Assembly: GCA_016788885.1 (NCBI GenBank)
Contig: JAEURX010000016.1
Span: forward strand, 1-64,000
Length of the DNA: 64,000 nucleotides
Direction: 5' to 3'
Source: Nitrospira sp.
GTDB lineage: Bacteria > Nitrospirota > Nitrospiria > Nitrospirales > Nitrospiraceae
This document shows positions 15,594-24,533 of the stretch, one piece after another. A program made the translations under genes and the position numbers. The number at the start of each line of letters is the position of its first letter. Positions within the stretch are counted from its first letter, which is position 1. The notes under the pieces were generated by a model. It searched no databases, was not told the origin of the DNA, and was given only the letters and a program-made list of their open reading frames with translations.

Positions 15594-16712
15594 GTGACAA
15601 CCAAGCCGCTAGTGGTCGCCCCAAGCGAAAAAGCCTATGGGCTGAAGCCCGGGGCCGAAGAGTTTCCGCTGATGGTCATTATCTCCATTATTTATCCATG
15701 CAATATGGGGTGTCCAAACTGTCCCTATACGGATACCAATTCTGAATTGCGACGGTTCTACCGTGAGCACGATGGCGATTTAATCCCGGTGAAGTTATGG
15801 GAGAAAATTGCTGATGAGTGTGGTCCGTATGGCGCATGGATGCGCTGTACCGGTGGTGGCGAACCCATGCTCCATCCGAAAATGGTCGAGATGATTGAAT
15901 ATGCCAAGGCGAAAGGGGCCAGAGTCTGGTTAAACACCAACGGAAGTATGTTTGGCCCAAACGCCAAGCATCGTGAACGGTTGGAACGCGTAATCCGGGC
16001 CGGGATTGATCTCATCGAATTCTCGATGGATGCGGCGGATGCCGACACCTATGCGGTGTTGCGTCCACCGCGAAGCGGGAAGACGGGAGATCCGGAGCAG
16101 TGGTGGGCGAAACACGTCGGTAATGTACGTGCCGCGTTGGATCTTCGAAAGCAGCATGTGGCGACTACCCGAGTGGTCACTTCCATCATTCGCCAGGAAG
16201 CGATCGACGGCCGACTGGATGACGCGGTTCAGTTTTGGCTGAAGGATGTGGGGGTGGATGAGGTCATTACCAGGAAGTTTCTTTCCTGGGATGATAATAC
16301 GACGATTCAGCTTGGAAAAACTCTCGACCGACATTTGTATGCGGACCTGCCGACACAAAAGAAGGAACCGTGCGTCTGGCCGTTTGAGCGGTTGAATGTG
16401 GATACCTTAGGACGGATTGCCCTTTGCGGGCAGGACATTTCCTTCAAGACCTCTGAGCTATTTCCCAACGTGAAGGACACAAGTCTTAAGGAAATTTGGC
16501 AGGGGGAAATGTTCACGTGGTATCGCAAGATGCATCTCGAGGGCCGAGGCGCTGAATGTTTTCCCTGCCGCGGATGTTCGGCCTGGTTCGCTGGTATTCG
16601 TGATTGGGACCATGGGTGGCAGAAGGTCCTACGGAACTCGGGGGATCATTTAAAAGAAGTGATGCGAAGAGATCTAGGGGTGGAGGTTGAGGTCTTCCAA
16701 CCGAAAGTCTAG
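15594..16712 (+). CDS. Radical SAM/SPASM-type protein
   Basis: 372 residues. CNMGCPNCPY is the CxxxCxxC 4Fe-4S/SAM motif near residue 38; RCTGGGEPMLHPKMVEMI is the GGE motif that binds the SAM amino group; VWLNTNGSMF and IDLIEFSMDAADADTY match later barrel strands. The C-terminal part has clustered cysteines (CVWPF, IALCGQD, CFPCRGCSAW) as in SPASM/twitch auxiliary cluster domains. Start GTG 15594 with AGGAG at 15581-15585. It is followed by a formyltransferase gene 28 bases later. Substrate could be a sugar or a peptide; none can be assigned. Confidence 0.85.
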   Translation: MTTKPLVVAPSEKAYGLKPGAEEFPLMVIISIIYPCNMGCPNCPYTDTNSELRRFYREHDGDLIPVKLWEKIADECGPYGAWMRCTGGGEPMLHPKMVEMIEYAKAKGARVWLNTNGSMFGPNAKHRERLERVIRAGIDLIEFSMDAADADTYAVLRPPRSGKTGDPEQWWAKHVGNVRAALDLRKQHVATTRVVTSIIRQEAIDGRLDDAVQFWLKDVGVDEVITRKFLSWDDNTTIQLGKTLDRHLYADLPTQKKEPCVWPFERLNVDTLGRIALCGQDISFKTSELFPNVKDTSLKEIWQGEMFTWYRKMHLEGRGAECFPCRGCSAWFAGIRDWDHGWQKVLRNSGDHLKEVMRRDLGVEVEVFQPKV

Positions 16713-16740: not shown

Positions 16741-17700
16741 ATGTCGGAGAAGGAATCCGTTCGTGACACGGCTGGGGCGCGGGGTGGGCGGGTTATTGTT
16801 TTTGGGTATGGCGAATTAGGCGCCGCAGCCGTCACGGCGCTAGTCTCGGCTGGAGCGCAGGTAGTTGCCGTGGTGGCCCCTTCGAATCGGTCCGGCGATG
16901 ATGTCCTCTTCATGAAAGAGTTCGCTCGCACGCAGCGGCTTCCGGTGCTCGTGCAGCCGCCACGGAAGGCGATTGAGCCGTTCGTCCTCGACCTGAAAAA
17001 GCTTGAACCGGATGTCATTGTGGTGTGGTCATACCCGATGATTCTTCCGCTTGATGTGATTCAAGTCCCCCGGCAAGGTACGGTCAATGTTCATGGCGGC
17101 CTATTGCCTGAATATCGAGGCGGGCATGTCATGCAGTGGGCCATCATCAATGGTGAAGTGGAGACGGGCGTGGCGCTTCATTATATGGATGAAGGTATCG
17201 ATACCGGGCCAATCATTGCCCAAGGGCGTTTTCCCATTCAGCAGGATGACGATGCTGCGACGGTACGACAGAAACTGAAGACGACGGGAATTGCCCTGCT
17301 TCAGGAATGGTGGCCCGCGATTGCGGAAGGGCGCGCCTCAAAGATTCCGCAGGATGAAACGAAAGCCACATATCATCGGCTTCGTACTCAGGATGATGGC
17401 GTGATCGATTGGTCGGTTACGAGCACCGCGATCTGCCGCTTGGTGAAGGCGCTCGTTCGTCCGTGGCCAGGCGCGTTCACTTTCTTGAATGGGCGGAAGC
17501 TAGTAATATGGAAGTCCCGTGCGCTTCAGGGATCGGCTGGAGGACCGCCGGGCCTGGTCACTCAGATCGATGAGCAAGGGGCGAGGGTGCTGACCGGCGA
17601 TGGCGCAGTTCTCATTGAAGAATCCGAAATGGATGGCCGGCGGAGTGTGGGGATGCAGGTGCAGCAAATTCTGCGAGTCGGGGACCGCGTAGGTGCTTGA
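16741..17700 (+). CDS. Formyltransferase family protein, probable sugar N-formyltransferase
   Basis: Fold of Fmt/ArnA-N formyltransferases, 319 residues: uses 10-formyl-tetrahydrofolate to formylate an amine. VNVHGGLLPEYRGGHVMQW contains the catalytic Asn and His and the LLPxYRG loop; YMDEGIDTGPIIAQG contains the catalytic Asp. The C-terminal part (RPWPGAFTFLNGRKLVIWKS) is the OB-like domain. A house-keeping Fmt is unlikely because the gene is deep in a glycan cluster without def, and the first 17 residues are an unusual extension. With the dehydratase (22.4 kb) and aminotransferase (23.4 kb) it could make an N-formyl amino-deoxy sugar. Confidence 0.82.
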   Translation: MSEKESVRDTAGARGGRVIVFGYGELGAAAVTALVSAGAQVVAVVAPSNRSGDDVLFMKEFARTQRLPVLVQPPRKAIEPFVLDLKKLEPDVIVVWSYPMILPLDVIQVPRQGTVNVHGGLLPEYRGGHVMQWAIINGEVETGVALHYMDEGIDTGPIIAQGRFPIQQDDDAATVRQKLKTTGIALLQEWWPAIAEGRASKIPQDETKATYHRLRTQDDGVIDWSVTSTAICRLVKALVRPWPGAFTFLNGRKLVIWKSRALQGSAGGPPGLVTQIDEQGARVLTGDGAVLIEESEMDGRRSVGMQVQQILRVGDRVGA

Positions 17701-17725
17701 GGGGCTGGATGGAATGGAGATCACC

Positions 17726-18160
17726 ATGAGCGTATTTGAGCCGGTCCATGTCATCTACGACGGGCAGTGTCGCTTTTGCCTTCGCAGCTTAAAGATATTC
17801 AGTGCCACCGACCTCATGCAGGTATTTCGATTTCATGACGCCCACGATGAGCAATCGATTGCTGCGGCGTTTCCTGAGTTAACGCATGCGGATTTTGACA
17901 ATGCGATGTTTGCCGTCACGGAACGGCGGGTAGTCTATCGGGGATTCTTTGCCTTTCGCCGCATGATTTGGAGCAGTCCGCTGATGTGGCTCCTCATCCC
18001 GGTGTTTTATTTTCCCGGTGCAACCTTTGTGGGGACTCGTGTCTATGCATGGGTGGCCAAGAATCGACTGAAGTTTGGTTGTGGCTCGGAGGCCTGCACA
18101 CTTCCAGTTCACCCTCCCAAGGGATCTTCCCCTGACCATATTGATGCTGTGCCTCATTAG
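17726..18160 (+). CDS. DCC family (DUF393) thiol-disulfide oxidoreductase-like protein
   Basis: About 144 residues. VIYDGQCRFCLRSLKIF has the DxxCxxC motif that names this thioredoxin-like family, and the C-terminal YAWVAKNRLKFGCGSEAC segment is also typical. One hydrophobic stretch (about 88-104, PLMWLLIPVFYFPGATF) may dip into the membrane. ATG 17726 with GGAG at 17715-17718 is preferred over upstream starts that overlap the formyltransferase. The next gene encodes an HTTM-like membrane protein; DCC domains are known to occur with or fused to HTTM domains, so the two probably work together. Confidence 0.82.
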   Translation: MSVFEPVHVIYDGQCRFCLRSLKIFSATDLMQVFRFHDAHDEQSIAAAFPELTHADFDNAMFAVTERRVVYRGFFAFRRMIWSSPLMWLLIPVFYFPGATFVGTRVYAWVAKNRLKFGCGSEACTLPVHPPKGSSPDHIDAVPH

Positions 18161-18231
18161 GATGCGCGGAGTGTTTCATGTTGCCGGAACGGTCGGACCA
18201 TTCATGCTGAAGGGAAAGGGGTGAGCTCCAT

Positions 18232-19725
18232 ATGGAGATGTGGTTTGCCTCACAACCATTCCTACATCCGGAACTCAGTTTTTCGGTGCAGGCGTTTATG
18301 CGCGTCGCATACGGGACACTCCTGTGCGGCATGCTAATCCTGGCGCTTCCTAGTTGGCGACGATTTTTCCTGAGCGAACGGTGGGGGGGATATGGGCAGT
18401 CGTTACGAGAGGTAGAAATTGTCCAAAATCCGATCGTCGTGCCTGTGGTACTTGTCGCATGGTTTGTGTGTGGCCTCTTGATCGCGAGAGGGCTATGGTC
18501 TCCATGGCCTGCCGTGATCAACTTGCTCATCTGTAGGTATTTTTTTGTCAGCATGCGCTGGAAGGGATTGCTGCGGGGCATGGGCGCTCCTGGATACATT
18601 CTCTACTGGGGAGGACTGGCGGTCGCTCTTCTGGAATATACGCTCCACTATGCACCTGAGCTACGCTCACTGGCATTACAAGTTCTTCAGGCGGACTTTG
18701 CGTGCGTGTATCTCTCATCCGGTTTCTATAAGTTCTCCGCCGGCTATGTCAAAAATCACGGGATGGAACTTGGGATGACCAATCCGGCTTGGGGGTACTG
18801 GTGGAAGGCCTACCGTAATCTGCCTCCCTCGCATCCGCTGTTTAAATTTCTAAATCACCTCGCATGGTCTTCGCAAATTGTGGCGGGAATTCTCATGTTG
18901 TTGCCGCCAACCCGATTCCTTGGTGGCCTGATCATCTTCGGAATGTTTGCCTTTATTGCCACCCAGATTCGGCTTGGTCTGCTATGCGAAATTGTGATGT
19001 TTTGTAGCAGTCTTATTTTCCTTCATCCCGGTAGTGCTGGCGATGTACTGATCACGGGCCTGGTTGGCTCGGTGACGGCTCCTCCCGCTCTGAGCTCGGC
19101 TTGGGCCCCTGCAGTCAATGAGGTGTTGGCGTATGCCCTGGGTGCCTACCTGATCCTGTTGCCATTGGCGCATGGCGGCTTGTCCTATAATTTCTATGTG
19201 AGGCGCTCGCTTCCGCGGCCGTTTCAGGTGGCCCTGGAGCGCTACACAAATTTCTTTGGCTTGATTGTGTGGAGAGTTTTTTCAGTCGACATTGTGAATT
19301 TCTTCATTCGAATCTATTCCTGTCCGCAAGGGGGCGAGCAGGATCGACGACCTCTCTCTCACGATGGTTGGGGGCCTCGGTGGCGATTCAAGCACGTCGC
19401 CGAGTCTATTGTCCTCGCCTGTATCTTTACGACGCTCAAATATTACCCGAATAACCAGGCACTGTTTAACGACCGACTGCTTCGGTATACCCGGACCTTT
19501 TCCCCTGAGAAGGGAGAGCTATTGATTTTTGAGTACGTCAGTTTACGAAAAGAGCCGGATCGATTTGTGTTTTCGCCGGTTGCTGAATATACGGTGGATC
19601 CCGCGGCCATGACCGTCGTGGAGCGGGTGATCGATTCCTCGGTGTCTGTGCGGGCGCCGCATGCGGTCTCGCCGGTTCATGAGGGGGTCCGGCCAGGGAC
19701 CTATGCTCCGGCAGGGGGACGGTAA
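18232..19725 (+). CDS. HTTM-like polytopic membrane protein
   Basis: 497 residues with about eight to nine membrane helices in the first 340 and a polar C-terminal part. The pattern FMRVAYGTLLCGMLILALPS, SSGFYKFSAGYVKNHGMELG and a string of short helices resembles HTTM (vitamin K-dependent gamma-carboxylase-like) proteins; I cannot identify the catalytic Lys of true carboxylases with certainty. It follows a DCC oxidoreductase, the usual partner. ATG 18232, AAGGGG ten bases before. Role in this locus unknown; a redox-coupled membrane modification is a guess. Confidence 0.62.
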   Translation: MEMWFASQPFLHPELSFSVQAFMRVAYGTLLCGMLILALPSWRRFFLSERWGGYGQSLREVEIVQNPIVVPVVLVAWFVCGLLIARGLWSPWPAVINLLICRYFFVSMRWKGLLRGMGAPGYILYWGGLAVALLEYTLHYAPELRSLALQVLQADFACVYLSSGFYKFSAGYVKNHGMELGMTNPAWGYWWKAYRNLPPSHPLFKFLNHLAWSSQIVAGILMLLPPTRFLGGLIIFGMFAFIATQIRLGLLCEIVMFCSSLIFLHPGSAGDVLITGLVGSVTAPPALSSAWAPAVNEVLAYALGAYLILLPLAHGGLSYNFYVRRSLPRPFQVALERYTNFFGLIVWRVFSVDIVNFFIRIYSCPQGGEQDRRPLSHDGWGPRWRFKHVAESIVLACIFTTLKYYPNNQALFNDRLLRYTRTFSPEKGELLIFEYVSLRKEPDRFVFSPVAEYTVDPAAMTVVERVIDSSVSVRAPHAVSPVHEGVRPGTYAPAGGR

Positions 19726-19730
19726 GAGAT

Positions 19731-21587
19731 ATGTGTGGAATTGCAGGTCGGTTTGGTCCTGGCCCAAATCAGATTGTCAACCAGATGGTCGGGGTCCTTG
19801 CCCATCGTGGGCCAGATGATGAACATGTGGTGTCGGGGAAAAACTTTGCAATCGGAGCCAGGCGGCTCAGTATTCTGGATCTTCCGGGAGGACGGCAGCC
19901 GATCGCCAATGAAACGCAGACAATTTGGGCGGCGCAAAATGGAGAGATTTACAACTTTCCTGCGCTTCGGAAAGACTTGCTCGAGCGTGGACATGTGCTT
20001 GAGACCCACTGCGATACGGAAGTCTTGCCTCATCTGTACGAGGAGCATGGGGCGGCCTTCCCCAAGAACATCGACGGTATGTTTGCCGTTGCGCTATGGG
20101 ATGGCGACGGGCAAATAGGATATCTGGCCCGGGACCGAACGGGGAAGAAGCCGCTCTACTATTGCCTGCATGATCACGCACTGTACTTCGCGTCTGAAAT
20201 CAAGTCGTTGTTGCACATTCCGGGCTTCACTCGACGTTTGAACTTTGATGCCCTCCACCAATTCCTGAGTTTCAAGCACGTGCCCCATCCGCTTTCGATA
20301 TTCGAAGGCATTGCCATGCTTCCGCCTGCGCATATGCTGACGTATCGCGTGGGACAGGAACCAGTCGTCAGTCGATACTGGGATCTCAGCTTCGCGGGAA
20401 CCGATACGAGCGCGGGAATGACGGAGGAAGAGATCACGGACCGGCTGCTTGTACTGCTTCGGCAGGGGGTCGAGCGGCGTCTGTTGTCGGATGTGCCGAT
20501 CGGGTTCTTTCTGAGCGGTGGCATTGATTCCAGCCTGTCGACGGTGCTTGCGGCAGAGCTCTCGCCGTCCAAGATCAAGAGTTTCACGCTGACGTATTCC
20601 CGGGAGTCTACGACCGAAGGGAAAGAGGAGGATCGCCGCTGGGCCCGTTGGGTCGCCGACCGGTATGGAACAGAGCATCACGAGGAAACCATCCAAGTGT
20701 CCAGCTTCCCCGAAAACCTCCGCCGCATTTTGTCGTGTTTTGATGAGCCCTATGCAGGCGTAGTCTCGACCTATTTTCTTGCTCAACTCATGAGCCAACA
20801 CGTCAAGGTGGCACTCTCGGGTGACGGGGCCGACGAACTCTTCGGAAGCTATTTGTCGCATCGCTTAGCCTTTCCTCTCGCCAATTTTCAGACCTATTTG
20901 CGGACTGGAAATCCTGCGCTTATTCGGCCTTTTGATCAGCAAGTGGATTTTCTTGCGCGGATGGCTGAGCCCGAAGACTGGGGATGGCGATACAAGTTGC
21001 TGGTATTCAGTGATGAGGAAAAAGACGCGCTTTATACTGAAGAGCTCGCCGCGCGCATGCGATCGTACAGTACCCGTGATCGACTCCGCCGTGATTTCTC
21101 AGAACTATCGGCTCGTGATCCCTTGAATCGGATACTGGAGTCGGAGTTCAGGACCATCTTCCCTGATCAGGTGTTGGCATTCGTCGATCGCCTTTCAATG
21201 GCCCATTCACTTGAGGTTCGCACGGCGTTTCTCGATACGGACTTCGTCACCTTTGTCTCCGGATTGCCAGGAGCCTTGAAGATCAAAGACGGGGAAACGA
21301 AGTACTTGCTGAAGAAGCTGGGGCTACGATACTTTCCACCCGAGATGGTGTACCGCAAGAAGGAAGGTTTTCTCATGCCGATCACGCAGTGGCTGTTGCG
21401 TGATCTGGAATCATATGTTCGAGAGACCCTCAGCCCCGAGCGACTCGCCAAGCACGGATTGTTTCGAGCGGCCTATGTTCAGGGCCTAGTGGATGCCTTG
21501 TATCGGGCGCAACCGGATCATCTCGCCGTCAACAAAGTCTATTCGCTGGTGGTTTTTCAGGAGTGGTATGACTTGTACATGGCCTGA
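19731..21587 (+). CDS. Asparagine synthase (glutamine-hydrolysing) family amidotransferase, copy 1
   Basis: 618 residues. MCGIAGRFGPG begins with the N-terminal nucleophile Cys2 of class II glutaminases; NGEIYNFPALR and THCDTEVLPHLYEEHG follow. The synthetase half has FFLSGGIDSSLST (PP-loop ATP pyrophosphatase) and ALSGDGADELFGSY. Both halves are complete, so it should transfer glutamine ammonia to an adenylated carboxylate. In glycan loci such proteins often amidate a sugar uronate or amino acid substituent instead of making free asparagine. It sits between the HTTM-like gene and wbqC; a second copy lies at 37.2 kb. Confidence 0.86.
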   Translation: MCGIAGRFGPGPNQIVNQMVGVLAHRGPDDEHVVSGKNFAIGARRLSILDLPGGRQPIANETQTIWAAQNGEIYNFPALRKDLLERGHVLETHCDTEVLPHLYEEHGAAFPKNIDGMFAVALWDGDGQIGYLARDRTGKKPLYYCLHDHALYFASEIKSLLHIPGFTRRLNFDALHQFLSFKHVPHPLSIFEGIAMLPPAHMLTYRVGQEPVVSRYWDLSFAGTDTSAGMTEEEITDRLLVLLRQGVERRLLSDVPIGFFLSGGIDSSLSTVLAAELSPSKIKSFTLTYSRESTTEGKEEDRRWARWVADRYGTEHHEETIQVSSFPENLRRILSCFDEPYAGVVSTYFLAQLMSQHVKVALSGDGADELFGSYLSHRLAFPLANFQTYLRTGNPALIRPFDQQVDFLARMAEPEDWGWRYKLLVFSDEEKDALYTEELAARMRSYSTRDRLRRDFSELSARDPLNRILESEFRTIFPDQVLAFVDRLSMAHSLEVRTAFLDTDFVTFVSGLPGALKIKDGETKYLLKKLGLRYFPPEMVYRKKEGFLMPITQWLLRDLESYVRETLSPERLAKHGLFRAAYVQGLVDALYRAQPDHLAVNKVYSLVVFQEWYDLYMA

Positions 21588-21639: not shown

Positions 21640-22350
21640 ATGCGCGAGCCTAACCCGCAGTCACCGATCACACTGTGTGTGCTCCAGCCAGGTTATTTGC
21701 CCTGGCTTGGCTTTTTTGATCAGATGCGTCGAAGTGATATTTTCGTCCTGTATGACGATGTCCAGTACGACAAGCATGGATGGCGAAATCGTAATCGAAT
21801 TAAAACTCCGAAGGGGCCTCATTGGTTGACCGTGCCCGTTCGGCATAAGGGATTAGGGTGGCCACGTATCAACGAGGTTGAAATTGACAACCAGACGGCC
21901 TGGGGAAAAAAGCACATCGGAACCATCAGGCAATTCTACGCAAAGGCACCATATCTGACTCAATACCTGCCCATGCTGGAAGATCAATTGTTACGGCCCT
22001 GGACGCTTCTTGCAGACCTGGATCTGTCTCTCATTGCGTTGATGTGTGAGTGGTTGCAGCTTCAACGAACGGTCATCCGTGCATCATCGCTCGATGTTGA
22101 AGGCGACCGGAATGAAAGATTGTGCGCCCTCTGCAAGCATTTCGACGCCACACGGTATCTCAGCGGTGACTCAGCGAAGACGTATCTGGACCGTGAGCTC
22201 TTCGCACGAAATGGAATTGAGGTGGCGTGGCAGGGGTTTCAGCACCCCGTGTATCCACAACAGCACGGGGAATTTGTCCCGTTTCTTTCCGCACTCGATC
22301 TCGTGTTGAACTGTGGACCGGATAGCGCGGCCATATTACGCGGCCAATGA
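21640..22350 (+). CDS. WbqC family protein
   Basis: 236-residue protein of the WbqC family found in O-antigen clusters. CVLQPGYLPWLGFFDQMRRS, YDDVQYDKHGWRNRNRIK and WLTVPVRHKGLG are the family hallmarks. Biochemical role is not firmly established; members commonly stand beside DegT aminotransferases and nucleotide-sugar genes, as here (dehydratase and aminotransferase follow), so a step in amino-sugar acylation or modification is plausible. The next gene starts 13 bases after its stop. Confidence 0.85.
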   Translation: MREPNPQSPITLCVLQPGYLPWLGFFDQMRRSDIFVLYDDVQYDKHGWRNRNRIKTPKGPHWLTVPVRHKGLGWPRINEVEIDNQTAWGKKHIGTIRQFYAKAPYLTQYLPMLEDQLLRPWTLLADLDLSLIALMCEWLQLQRTVIRASSLDVEGDRNERLCALCKHFDATRYLSGDSAKTYLDRELFARNGIEVAWQGFQHPVYPQQHGEFVPFLSALDLVLNCGPDSAAILRGQ

Positions 22351-22363
22351 AAAAGGAGGATTG

Positions 22364-23398
22364 GTGAAAACCATACTGATTACCGGAGGGGCAGGTTTCA
22401 TTGGCAGTAACTTTGTGCGCTATCTCTACGAGAAGTATCCGAACTATCGTCTCATCGTGTTGGATGCCTTGACCTATGCGGGGAATGTGAAAAATCTCCC
22501 GGTGGACATTAACAATGGTTCCGATGAGCGACTGATGTTCTGGTATGGAAATGTACGAAACGCCGAGTTGGTCGATACCGTGGTATCTCAGGCGGATGTG
22601 GTGATCCATTTTGCTGCCGAATCACACGTCACGCGGTCGATTTATGACAACCTGTTATTCTTTGAGACTGATGTATTGGGCACTCAGGCAGTCGCCAATG
22701 CTGTGCTCAAATATCGCGATAAGGTGGAACGATTCATTCATATCTCGACATCTGAAGTCTATGGGACCGCGGAGTCGGAGAAAATGTCGGAAACCCATCC
22801 ATTGCTGCCGATGAGTCCTTACGCATCAGCGAAGTGCGGCGCTGATCGCCTGGTCTATTCGTATTGGCAGACCTATGGAATTCCTTCGATCATCGTCCGT
22901 CCGTTCAATAATTATGGGCCGTATCAACACCTTGAGAAGGTGGTGCCGCGTTTCATCACGAGCTGCATTCTCGAGGAACCGATTACGGTTCATGGAGACG
23001 GGTCTGCGGCCAGAGACTTTATCTATGTGCAGGATCATTGCGAGGCTCTTGATTTGATTCTCCATGCCGAGCCCAAGCGGATCTTTGGTGAAGTGCTCAA
23101 TTTGGGGACAGGGCGACACATCAGCCTCATGGAGATCGCTGATACCGTTCGGGCACTGATGAAGCCGAAGAAGAGCCCCATTCAATTTATCGGTGATCGT
23201 CCCGGACAGGTGTTCCGCCACACGTGTGATCATTCGAAGGCCGCGAGGATTCTCGGCTGGCAACCGCGCACCTCATTCGAGCAGGGCCTTGAGCGAACAA
23301 TTCAATGGTATCGGGATAACGAAGCCTGGTGGAGACCACAGATGTGGATGAGGCGGATTCCCATCGTCACAGCCGCCGGCAAGCGGGAGTTACACTAA
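22364..23398 (+). CDS. NAD-dependent sugar 4,6-dehydratase/epimerase
   Basis: Extended SDR of about 344 residues. ILITGGAGFIGSNFVRYLYE binds NAD; YASAKCGADRLVYSY carries YxxxK; FNNYGPYQHLEKVVPRF matches the 4,6-dehydratase group. The TDE catalytic group of RmlB is here STSEVYG, with Ser in place of Asp, as in LegB-like enzymes, so the substrate may be a UDP- or other NDP-sugar and not dTDP-glucose. GTG 22364 is preceded by AGGAGG at 22354-22359. The aminotransferase starts one base after its stop, so the pair likely makes an NDP-4-amino-4,6-dideoxy sugar. Confidence 0.83.
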   Translation: MKTILITGGAGFIGSNFVRYLYEKYPNYRLIVLDALTYAGNVKNLPVDINNGSDERLMFWYGNVRNAELVDTVVSQADVVIHFAAESHVTRSIYDNLLFFETDVLGTQAVANAVLKYRDKVERFIHISTSEVYGTAESEKMSETHPLLPMSPYASAKCGADRLVYSYWQTYGIPSIIVRPFNNYGPYQHLEKVVPRFITSCILEEPITVHGDGSAARDFIYVQDHCEALDLILHAEPKRIFGEVLNLGTGRHISLMEIADTVRALMKPKKSPIQFIGDRPGQVFRHTCDHSKAARILGWQPRTSFEQGLERTIQWYRDNEAWWRPQMWMRRIPIVTAAGKRELH

Positions 23399-23399
23399 G

Positions 23400-24533
23400 A
23401 TGAGCATTCCTTTCTATCGCCATGATTTAGGCGAGCCGGAAATTGAGGCGGTGCGGAAGGTCCTCGCCGGGCCGATTCTGACGACGGGGGAAGTGGTCGA
23501 GTCCTTTGAACGACGCTTCGCGGCCTATCTTGGCATTCAGCATGCGCTGGCCGTCACGAGTTGTACCGGTGCGCTTCATCTCTCCCTCTTGGCATTAGGG
23601 ATCGGTCCTGGCGACGAGGTGATTACGACGCCGATGACCTTCATCGCCTCCTCCACGGCCATCCTCGAGGCTGGTGCAACGCCGGTCTTTGTTGATGTGG
23701 AATCGCAGACGGGCAACCTGGATGCAAACAACATTGAGGCGGCGATCACGCCACGGACCAAGGCCATTCTGCCTGTTCACCTGTACGGGCAGATGTGCGA
23801 TATGGTCACCATCCGGAAGATTGCCGACGAGCATGGCCTGTTTGTGATCGAGGATGCCGCCCATTGCCTTGAAGGTGTTCGTGATGGAGTCAAGCCGGGA
23901 GAGTTGGGAGATACGGCGTGCTTCTCCTTTTATGCGACCAAGAACCTCACCTGCGGAGAGGGGGGGGCTCTTGTGACCAAGAATAAAGAGGTCGCTGAAA
24001 AGCTTCGCCTGCTCAGGCTCCATGGCATGACAAAAACCGCAGCGGATCGTCACCGCGAGGGCTATCAGCATTGGGACATGACCGTGTTGGGCTGGAAGTA
24101 CAACATGGATAATATTCATGCCGCGCTCCTTCTTCCTCAAATGGATCGTATTGAACAGAGTTGGTCCAAGCGTGATGCCGTGGCCCGTTTGTATGAAGGA
24201 TTGCTGGCGGATTGTCCTGGTCTGTCCATGCCGAAAACCCATCCGCATGTGCGCCATGCCAGGCACCTCTTTCCGGTGTTTGTGGAGGGAGGGTGTCGAG
24301 ACGCAATTATCCAAGGCTTCCAGCAGGAGGGAATCGGCAGTGTGGTGAATTATCGCGCGATCCACCTGCTGACCTACTTTCGGGAAACATTTGGGTTTTG
24401 CATCGGCGAGTTCCCGAATGCCGAAAAGATTGGTGAGAGCGTGGTGTCCCTACCGTTTTATCCGGCGATGACCGAAGCCCAGACAACACAGGTTGCGGCA
24501 ACACTGAAGCGTCTCTTGAAGGCACGGATGTGA
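23400..24533 (+). CDS. DegT/DnrJ/EryC1/StrS sugar aminotransferase
   Basis: PLP-dependent aminotransferase acting on keto-sugars, 377 residues. TSCTGALHLSLLALGIGPGD binds the PLP phosphate; FVIEDAAHCLEG holds the Asp-Ala-Ala-His PLP motif; SFYATKNLTCGEGGALVT contains the Lys forming the internal aldimine; WKYNMDNIHAALLLPQMDRI is typical. One base after the dehydratase stop. With that enzyme it should give a 4-amino (or 3-amino) 6-deoxy nucleotide sugar, which the formyltransferase at 16741 could formylate. Confidence 0.9.
   Translation: MSIPFYRHDLGEPEIEAVRKVLAGPILTTGEVVESFERRFAAYLGIQHALAVTSCTGALHLSLLALGIGPGDEVITTPMTFIASSTAILEAGATPVFVDVESQTGNLDANNIEAAITPRTKAILPVHLYGQMCDMVTIRKIADEHGLFVIEDAAHCLEGVRDGVKPGELGDTACFSFYATKNLTCGEGGALVTKNKEVAEKLRLLRLHGMTKTAADRHREGYQHWDMTVLGWKYNMDNIHAALLLPQMDRIEQSWSKRDAVARLYEGLLADCPGLSMPKTHPHVRHARHLFPVFVEGGCRDAIIQGFQQEGIGSVVNYRAIHLLTYFRETFGFCIGEFPNAEKIGESVVSLPFYPAMTEAQTTQVAATLKRLLKARM

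Follow-up and report, generated by a model that had tools for sequence, protein, structure and literature searches.

A gene for a DCC thiol-disulfide oxidoreductase and a gene for a divergent relative of the HTTM membrane proteins lie side by side in an eight-gene cassette that would make an N-acylated 4-amino-4,6-dideoxysugar, and this arrangement recurs in three genera of the family. The reading that we tentatively favour, without regarding it as established, is that the pair is an accessory to a mobile sugar cassette. The window, i.e. the whole stretch of 64,000 nucleotides that was analysed, is contig C16 of a 3.92-Mb genome of Nitrospira sp. Its cassette runs from a radical SAM (rSAM) protein through an N-acyltransferase, DCC, the HTTM-like protein, AsnB, WbqC, and a 4,6-dehydratase to a 4-aminotransferase:

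15594..16712, + strand: radical SAM/SPASM protein, gene 1 of the cassette (Pfam Radical_SAM 1e-12, SPASM 7e-8)
16741..17700, + strand: ArnA-type N-formyltransferase (Formyl_trans_N/C; ArnA formyltransferase is the best PDB match, 1e-49)
17693..18160, + strand: DCC1-like thiol-disulfide oxidoreductase (PF04134, 70.1 bits; motif DGQCRFC)
18232..19725, + strand: 497-aa polytopic HTTM-like membrane protein with a soluble C-terminal domain (hhalign to an HTTM profile)
19303..19629, + strand: core of the C-terminal domain, predicted as beta-alpha-alpha-beta-beta-beta by AlphaFold2 (about residues 358-466)
19651..19722, + strand: C-terminal tail RAxHAVSPVHEGxRPGTYAPxGG (residues 474-497), near-invariant and predicted to be disordered
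19731..21587, + strand: asparagine-synthase-type amidotransferase, AsnB (Asn_synthase 3e-82, plus GATase_7)
21640..22350, + strand: WbqC-like protein (PF08889, 9e-79)
22358..23398, + strand: dTDP-glucose 4,6-dehydratase-like SDR (best PDB matches are dTDP-glucose 4,6-dehydratases, 2e-82)
23400..24533, + strand: DegT/ArnB/perosamine-synthase-type sugar 4-aminotransferase (PDB matches: ArnB-type 5e-78, perosamine synthase 3e-71)

The spacing around the pair is -8, 71, and 5 bp. A preliminary description of this DNA had reported the DCC gene and the membrane-protein ORF as adjoining and co-directional, and had placed them between a formyltransferase and an asparagine-synthase-type amidotransferase. 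Both statements hold: the two ORFs are on the + strand, 71 bp apart, and domain matches identify the flanking genes (16741-17700 and 19731-21587). AsnB scored under the XrtA/PEP-CTERM cut-off. The GC content of the glycan island (window positions 10001-36000) drops to 52-56%, compared with 58-61% leftward of it.

The DCC protein is securely assigned to its family by sequence, in agreement with the identity proposed in the preliminary description. It scores 70.1 bits with the Pfam DCC1-like profile (PF04134), against a curated cut-off of 27.8, and carries the DxxCxxC motif near its N-terminus (YDGQCRFC in the window, YDGQCLFC in genome G224, and YDGHGLFC in a relic in genome G457). The ORF ends at 18160 (+) and has three candidate starts (GTG 17693, ATG 17714, and ATG 17726), of which the preliminary description used ATG 17726; either of the two ATG codons is the likely start. 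The motif, the length, and a score well over the curated cut-off are common to this protein and other DCC1-like (PF04134/DUF393) proteins. It differs in being a separate gene, not a fusion, and in pairing with its orthologue in G224 (69% identical); with further DCC proteins encoded in these genomes, simple pairwise comparison gives just short local alignments.

A 4,6-dehydratase, a 4-aminotransferase, and an N-acyltransferase, each recognised by sequence family, are all encoded in one cassette. The straightforward reading is that its product would be a 4-amino-4,6-dideoxysugar with an N-acyl group that differs between genera: the acyltransferase slot is occupied by a formyltransferase in the window and by an unrelated GNAT in G224 and G457 (loci L006 and L010). 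N-formyltransferases are known in O-antigen synthesis, and the accessible part of one paper gives wbtJ as an example (PMC10924466). O-antigen and EPS cassettes for N-formyl or N-acetyl 4-amino-4,6-dideoxysugars have in common with this one the dehydratase-like, ArnB/perosamine-synthase-like, and ArnA-type formyltransferase genes. Here these genes are accompanied by rSAM, AsnB, WbqC, and the DCC/HTTM-like pair, and the type of acyltransferase has been swapped between genera. The rSAM protein has weak PDB matches that include BlsE and BtrN, which are sugar-acting rSAM enzymes.

The HTTM-like protein is encoded in 3 of the 175 genomes of the family, one in each of three genera (the window genome, G224, and G457), and a search of 235 genomes of the order gave no further carriers. 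Exactly the same three genomes of the 175 encode a close copy of the rSAM protein (79-81% identical), which at E<=1e-60 is found in these and in one other genome, G443. Gene order is identical in the three genomes, from rSAM, acyltransferase, DCC (a relic in G457), and HTTM-like to AsnB, WbqC, dehydratase, and DegT, and the surroundings beyond the cassette differ in each of them. The shared genes are similar in sequence: AsnB is 73-78% and the dehydratase 81-86% identical in the other cassettes, and WbqC has three other close copies in the family (73-75%), followed by a gap to 56% and then to 42% or less. The preliminary description had proposed, as a check, to look for the pair beside glycan genes in other genomes. 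Three genera do share the neighbourhood, adjoining sugar-nucleotide genes in each, with the DCC gene of G457 present as a relic. These observations support the view that the DCC and HTTM-like genes belong together. Homologues of the HTTM-like protein were absent from the genome contigs (searched with the single protein and a two-row alignment), from viral contigs (two scans), and from plasmids (tblastn), in searches whose short contig, viral, and plasmid scan patterns may have missed distant homologues. A match in G029 (E 0.0098) lies in an unrelated neighbourhood and was dismissed as chance.

The relic in G457 and two related loci inform on how closely the pair is tied to the cassette. In G457, 166 bp between the GNAT gene and the HTTM-like gene (L010 12515-12680, minus strand) correspond to a decayed DCC gene: the translated local score is 76, and 1000 shuffles reached at most 41. 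The relic reads YDGHGLFCIHSL; one Cys of the motif is gone (DGHGLFC), and a frameshift and a truncation follow. This means that DCC was ancestrally present in all three cassettes. Since the HTTM-like gene of G457 is intact despite this decay, DCC is not strictly required there. The same genome has, on contig C21 (L039 5986-7900), a separate set composed of a 169-aa protein with an EWGMFW motif, an HTTM protein (matched with P 6e-8 by the HTTM profile described below), and a DCC protein, near SGNH-type and NodU-type genes; this HTTM-DCC pair may or may not substitute for the decayed DCC. Residue 258 of the HTTM-like protein (19003-19005) is Cys in the two genomes where the DCC gene is intact and Ser in G457, which, for a single loss, is an anecdote.

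A related cassette in G443 (L071 4475-12260) encodes rSAM, AsnB, formyltransferase, WbqC, dehydratase, and DegT in this order, with 28-67% identity, and has neither DCC nor the HTTM-like gene. It contains two rSAM genes in a row, and its formyltransferase gene comes after AsnB, not before. Because such a cassette exists without either gene, the DCC/HTTM-like pair looks like an accessory add-on. This bears on the earlier claim that the setting of the pair is not explained by ordinary O-antigen synthesis: the cassette around the pair is coherent as a pathway for N-acyl-4-amino-4,6-dideoxysugar synthesis, which qualifies that claim. In G446 (L072 4641-5837), AsnB consists only of residues 230-617 and everything upstream is missing; the remainder of the locus encodes WbqC (74%), dehydratase (86%), and DegT (77%). 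The truncation reflects a deletion or a misassembly, and may be an artefact because the genome is about 70% complete.

The 497-aa ORF has two homologues of exactly equal length, 65-72% identical, in the two other genera, and the codon differences within conserved segments of the three are mostly synonymous. We therefore take it to be a real gene. The protein has about 8-10 hydrophobic segments, extending to residue 359, and is without a match in Pfam and NCBIfam. None of the three homologues matches Pfam HTTM (PF05090), which has zero matches in the window genome at E<=10 and a single member, outside the family, when the genome is searched together with 100 relatives and 295 genomes of the phylum. 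The relation to HTTM emerged from comparison of profiles. The profile of the three homologues aligned over residues 143-273 with one built from 11 HTTM proteins of plasmid records (hhalign P 5.4e-5, Prob 66.5), in register through a Y-x-x-x-G-x-x-K motif. Taken singly, the three homologues gave P 1.4e-4 to 1.9e-4, comparable to an HTTM-DCC fusion protein used as a control (P 2e-4); all of 14 unrelated polytopic ORFs gave P >= 0.048 against the same HTTM profile, and the profile of the three homologues gave P >= 0.013 with eight other proteins. The HTTM profile misses the rhizobial HTTM-type proteins and so does not span the whole superfamily.

In this alignment, K167, invariant in all three sequences, corresponds to the invariant HTTM Lys that follows Y-x-x-x-G. 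Human GGCX, the vitamin K-dependent gamma-carboxylase, is matched by the HTTM family at 2e-18, which places the motif Lys at GGCX K218; a GGCX review consulted in a literature check holds no data on K218. Other invariant HTTM positions are not conserved: the His aligns with A240 (A/M/I across the homologues), the Trp that follows the Lys with V173 (V/P), and the invariant Phe with C252. The second conserved block of GGCX, with its Asp/His (GGCX H160), falls outside the confident profile alignment. Many polar and aromatic residues of the membrane segments are invariant besides K167, as are five Cys of the protein (C32, C80, C101, C252, and C397), in a thin sampling of just three sequences. A full-length AlphaFold2 model (two sequences) had a pLDDT of 41.7, too low to use for the fold. 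The profile match, set against the non-conserved His and Trp, leads us to regard the protein as a probable divergent relative of HTTM, supported at the profile level only, and not to file it as a member. The label 'HTTM-like' of the preliminary description is accordingly kept in this restricted sense, for the profile-level relation (P 5.4e-5) and not for membership in PF05090. HTTM proteins, including the SdpB family and the HTTM-DCC fusions, have in common with the window protein a polytopic organisation, the register of the motif, and an adjoining DCC gene. The window protein differs from them in escaping the Pfam profile, in its extra C-terminal domain, and in its place within a nucleotide-sugar cassette that has no separate SdpA/DUF5819 gene.

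The C-terminal domain (residues 335-497) was modelled by AlphaFold2 from the three sequences with a pTM of 0.67, as a predicted beta-alpha-alpha-beta-beta-beta fold with core pLDDT mostly of 67-88 and one low loop. Structure matches are weak (best Z 3.3), and Foldseek returned nothing for the domain at E <= 0.001. Two GGCX entries, at an equivalent position after the membrane part, appear at Z 2.1-2.2, a score that unrelated matches reach as well, so the likeness of the model to GGCX is only a hint. In both proteins a soluble domain follows the membrane part, and through the HTTM alignment they share the core Lys (K218). They differ in that no similarity could be detected between the sequences of their C-terminal domains and in that the window protein does not conserve the HTTM core His. 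Sequence comparison gave no signal for homology of the domain to GGCX 397-524, and a by-eye alignment (397-496), at first promising, was dropped as evidence when it failed against shuffles. Identity with DUF5819/SdpA was rejected (profile comparison, P 0.2); no SdpA/DUF5819 gene was found among the cassette ORFs either. The tail has a pLDDT of 27-39, and its 24 codons show 3-4 non-synonymous against 13-15 synonymous differences between the three genera. A second copy of it was absent from the eight loci checked.

The association of HTTM with DCC is already known; this case differs by its sugar cassette, by the divergence of its HTTM branch, and by the absence of SdpA/DUF5819. Our literature search found no paper combining HTTM with DCC and thiol-disulfide oxidoreductase, and the DUF393 papers it returned were irrelevant. 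Plasmid records of Streptomyces have DUF5819-HTTM-DCC neighbourhoods, one of Niallia has DUF393-SdpA-SdpB adjoining an SDP-type gene, and one of Virgibacillus has a DUF5819 gene beside an HTTM-DCC fusion that weakly matches LMF1. Sets of HTTM and DCC genes near polysaccharide-type genes occur in Sinorhizobium, where an HTTM-type protein and a DCC gene are beside flippase- and acyltransferase-type genes, and on contig C21 of G457.

The working that we tentatively propose has four steps. The dehydratase and the aminotransferase would produce a nucleotide-linked 4-amino-4,6-dideoxysugar, which, judging from the enzyme families, the formyltransferase (GNAT in the relatives) would N-acylate. The rSAM, AsnB, and WbqC proteins might then modify the sugar further. 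At the membrane, the HTTM-like protein would add one modification to the lipid-linked or exported glycan unit by means of K167. The thioredoxin-like DCC protein would maintain the redox state that the HTTM-like protein or a cofactor of it needs, and the decay in G457 suggests that the cassette can do without this DCC or use another in its place. That the HTTM-like protein modifies a glycan at the membrane is our best guess, with gene neighbourhood as its sole link to the sugar. The earlier proposal of a redox-dependent membrane modification tied to the glycan gains from the conserved sugar-gene neighbourhood and loses from the DCC relic in G457, beside which the HTTM-like gene is intact. A bolder form, which we find improbable, is that the protein represents a new branch of the HTTM superfamily that has given up peptide carboxylation, keeping the Lys and losing the His and Trp, and has become a glycan-modifying membrane enzyme acting on a lipid-linked or exported sugar, with or without DCC.

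The rSAM/SPASM, DCC, and HTTM-like proteins could instead form a peptide-modifying module, comparable to SdpAB and GGCX, that merely lies beside the sugar genes and acts on a secreted peptide or on the protein's own tail. This would agree with the recurring DUF5819/SdpA-HTTM-DCC neighbourhoods, with the near-invariance of the tail, and with the fact that HTTM relatives of known or annotated role act on peptides (GGCX, and SdpB, which in Niallia accompanies SdpA, DUF393, and the SDP-type gene); rSAM/SPASM proteins are, moreover, frequently peptide modifiers. We nonetheless consider it unlikely: a precursor-peptide gene would not fit between cassette genes whose spacing is -8 to 71 bp, the sugar-acting BlsE and BtrN are among the solved structures nearest to rSAM, the sugar cassette of G443 retains rSAM but has no HTTM-like gene, and neither the His nor the Trp that is invariant in HTTM is conserved. 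The loss of these two residues is equally a point for a non-catalytic protein that anchors the sugar enzymes at the membrane or helps to assemble them, its tail serving as a docking peptide; DCC would then help a cassette enzyme to fold or to maintain its disulfides. A tail that is strongly conserved yet predicted to be disordered would suit such a role, and LMF1-type relatives are chaperone-like factors. We doubt this explanation too, because the invariant K167 and the many polar and aromatic residues of the membrane segments, in the three sequences available, suggest an active site.

There is a small likelihood, in our judgement, that DCC and the membrane protein are chance neighbours, brought by recombination into a glycan island that is hypervariable, with no functional relation to one another or to the glycan. 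Points in favour are the mosaic nature of the island, with the shift in GC given above and surroundings that vary by genome, and the decay of DCC in G457. This explanation is weakened by the HTTM-like gene, which keeps the same position and order in three genera, is 65-72% identical, and is under purifying selection in conserved segments, and by the relic, which makes DCC ancestral in all three cassettes; moreover, the 3 genomes of 175 that encode rSAM are exactly those that encode the HTTM-like protein.

Conserved synteny connects a divergent HTTM relative with a sugar pathway that can be defined, so a comparison of glycans made in the presence and absence of a single gene would be a way to look for its product. 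Nature also provides a set of cassettes, with intact DCC in two genomes, a relic in one, and a related cassette without both genes in another, which makes the need of the HTTM protein for DCC directly testable.

Two plasmids encode further DCC (DUF393) proteins. In Halobaculum (L024 2311-4348), the gene for an unannotated 254-aa membrane-anchored protein immediately precedes one for a DCC fusion, and Pfam HTTM does not recognise the N-terminal membrane part of this fusion; the arrangement is possibly an archaeal analogue of SdpA-HTTM-DCC. In Rhizobium (L036 4999-7557), the N-terminal half of an 852-aa DUF393 protein matches the HTTM profile with P 2e-4, and its gene adjoins one for a phytanoyl-CoA dioxygenase.
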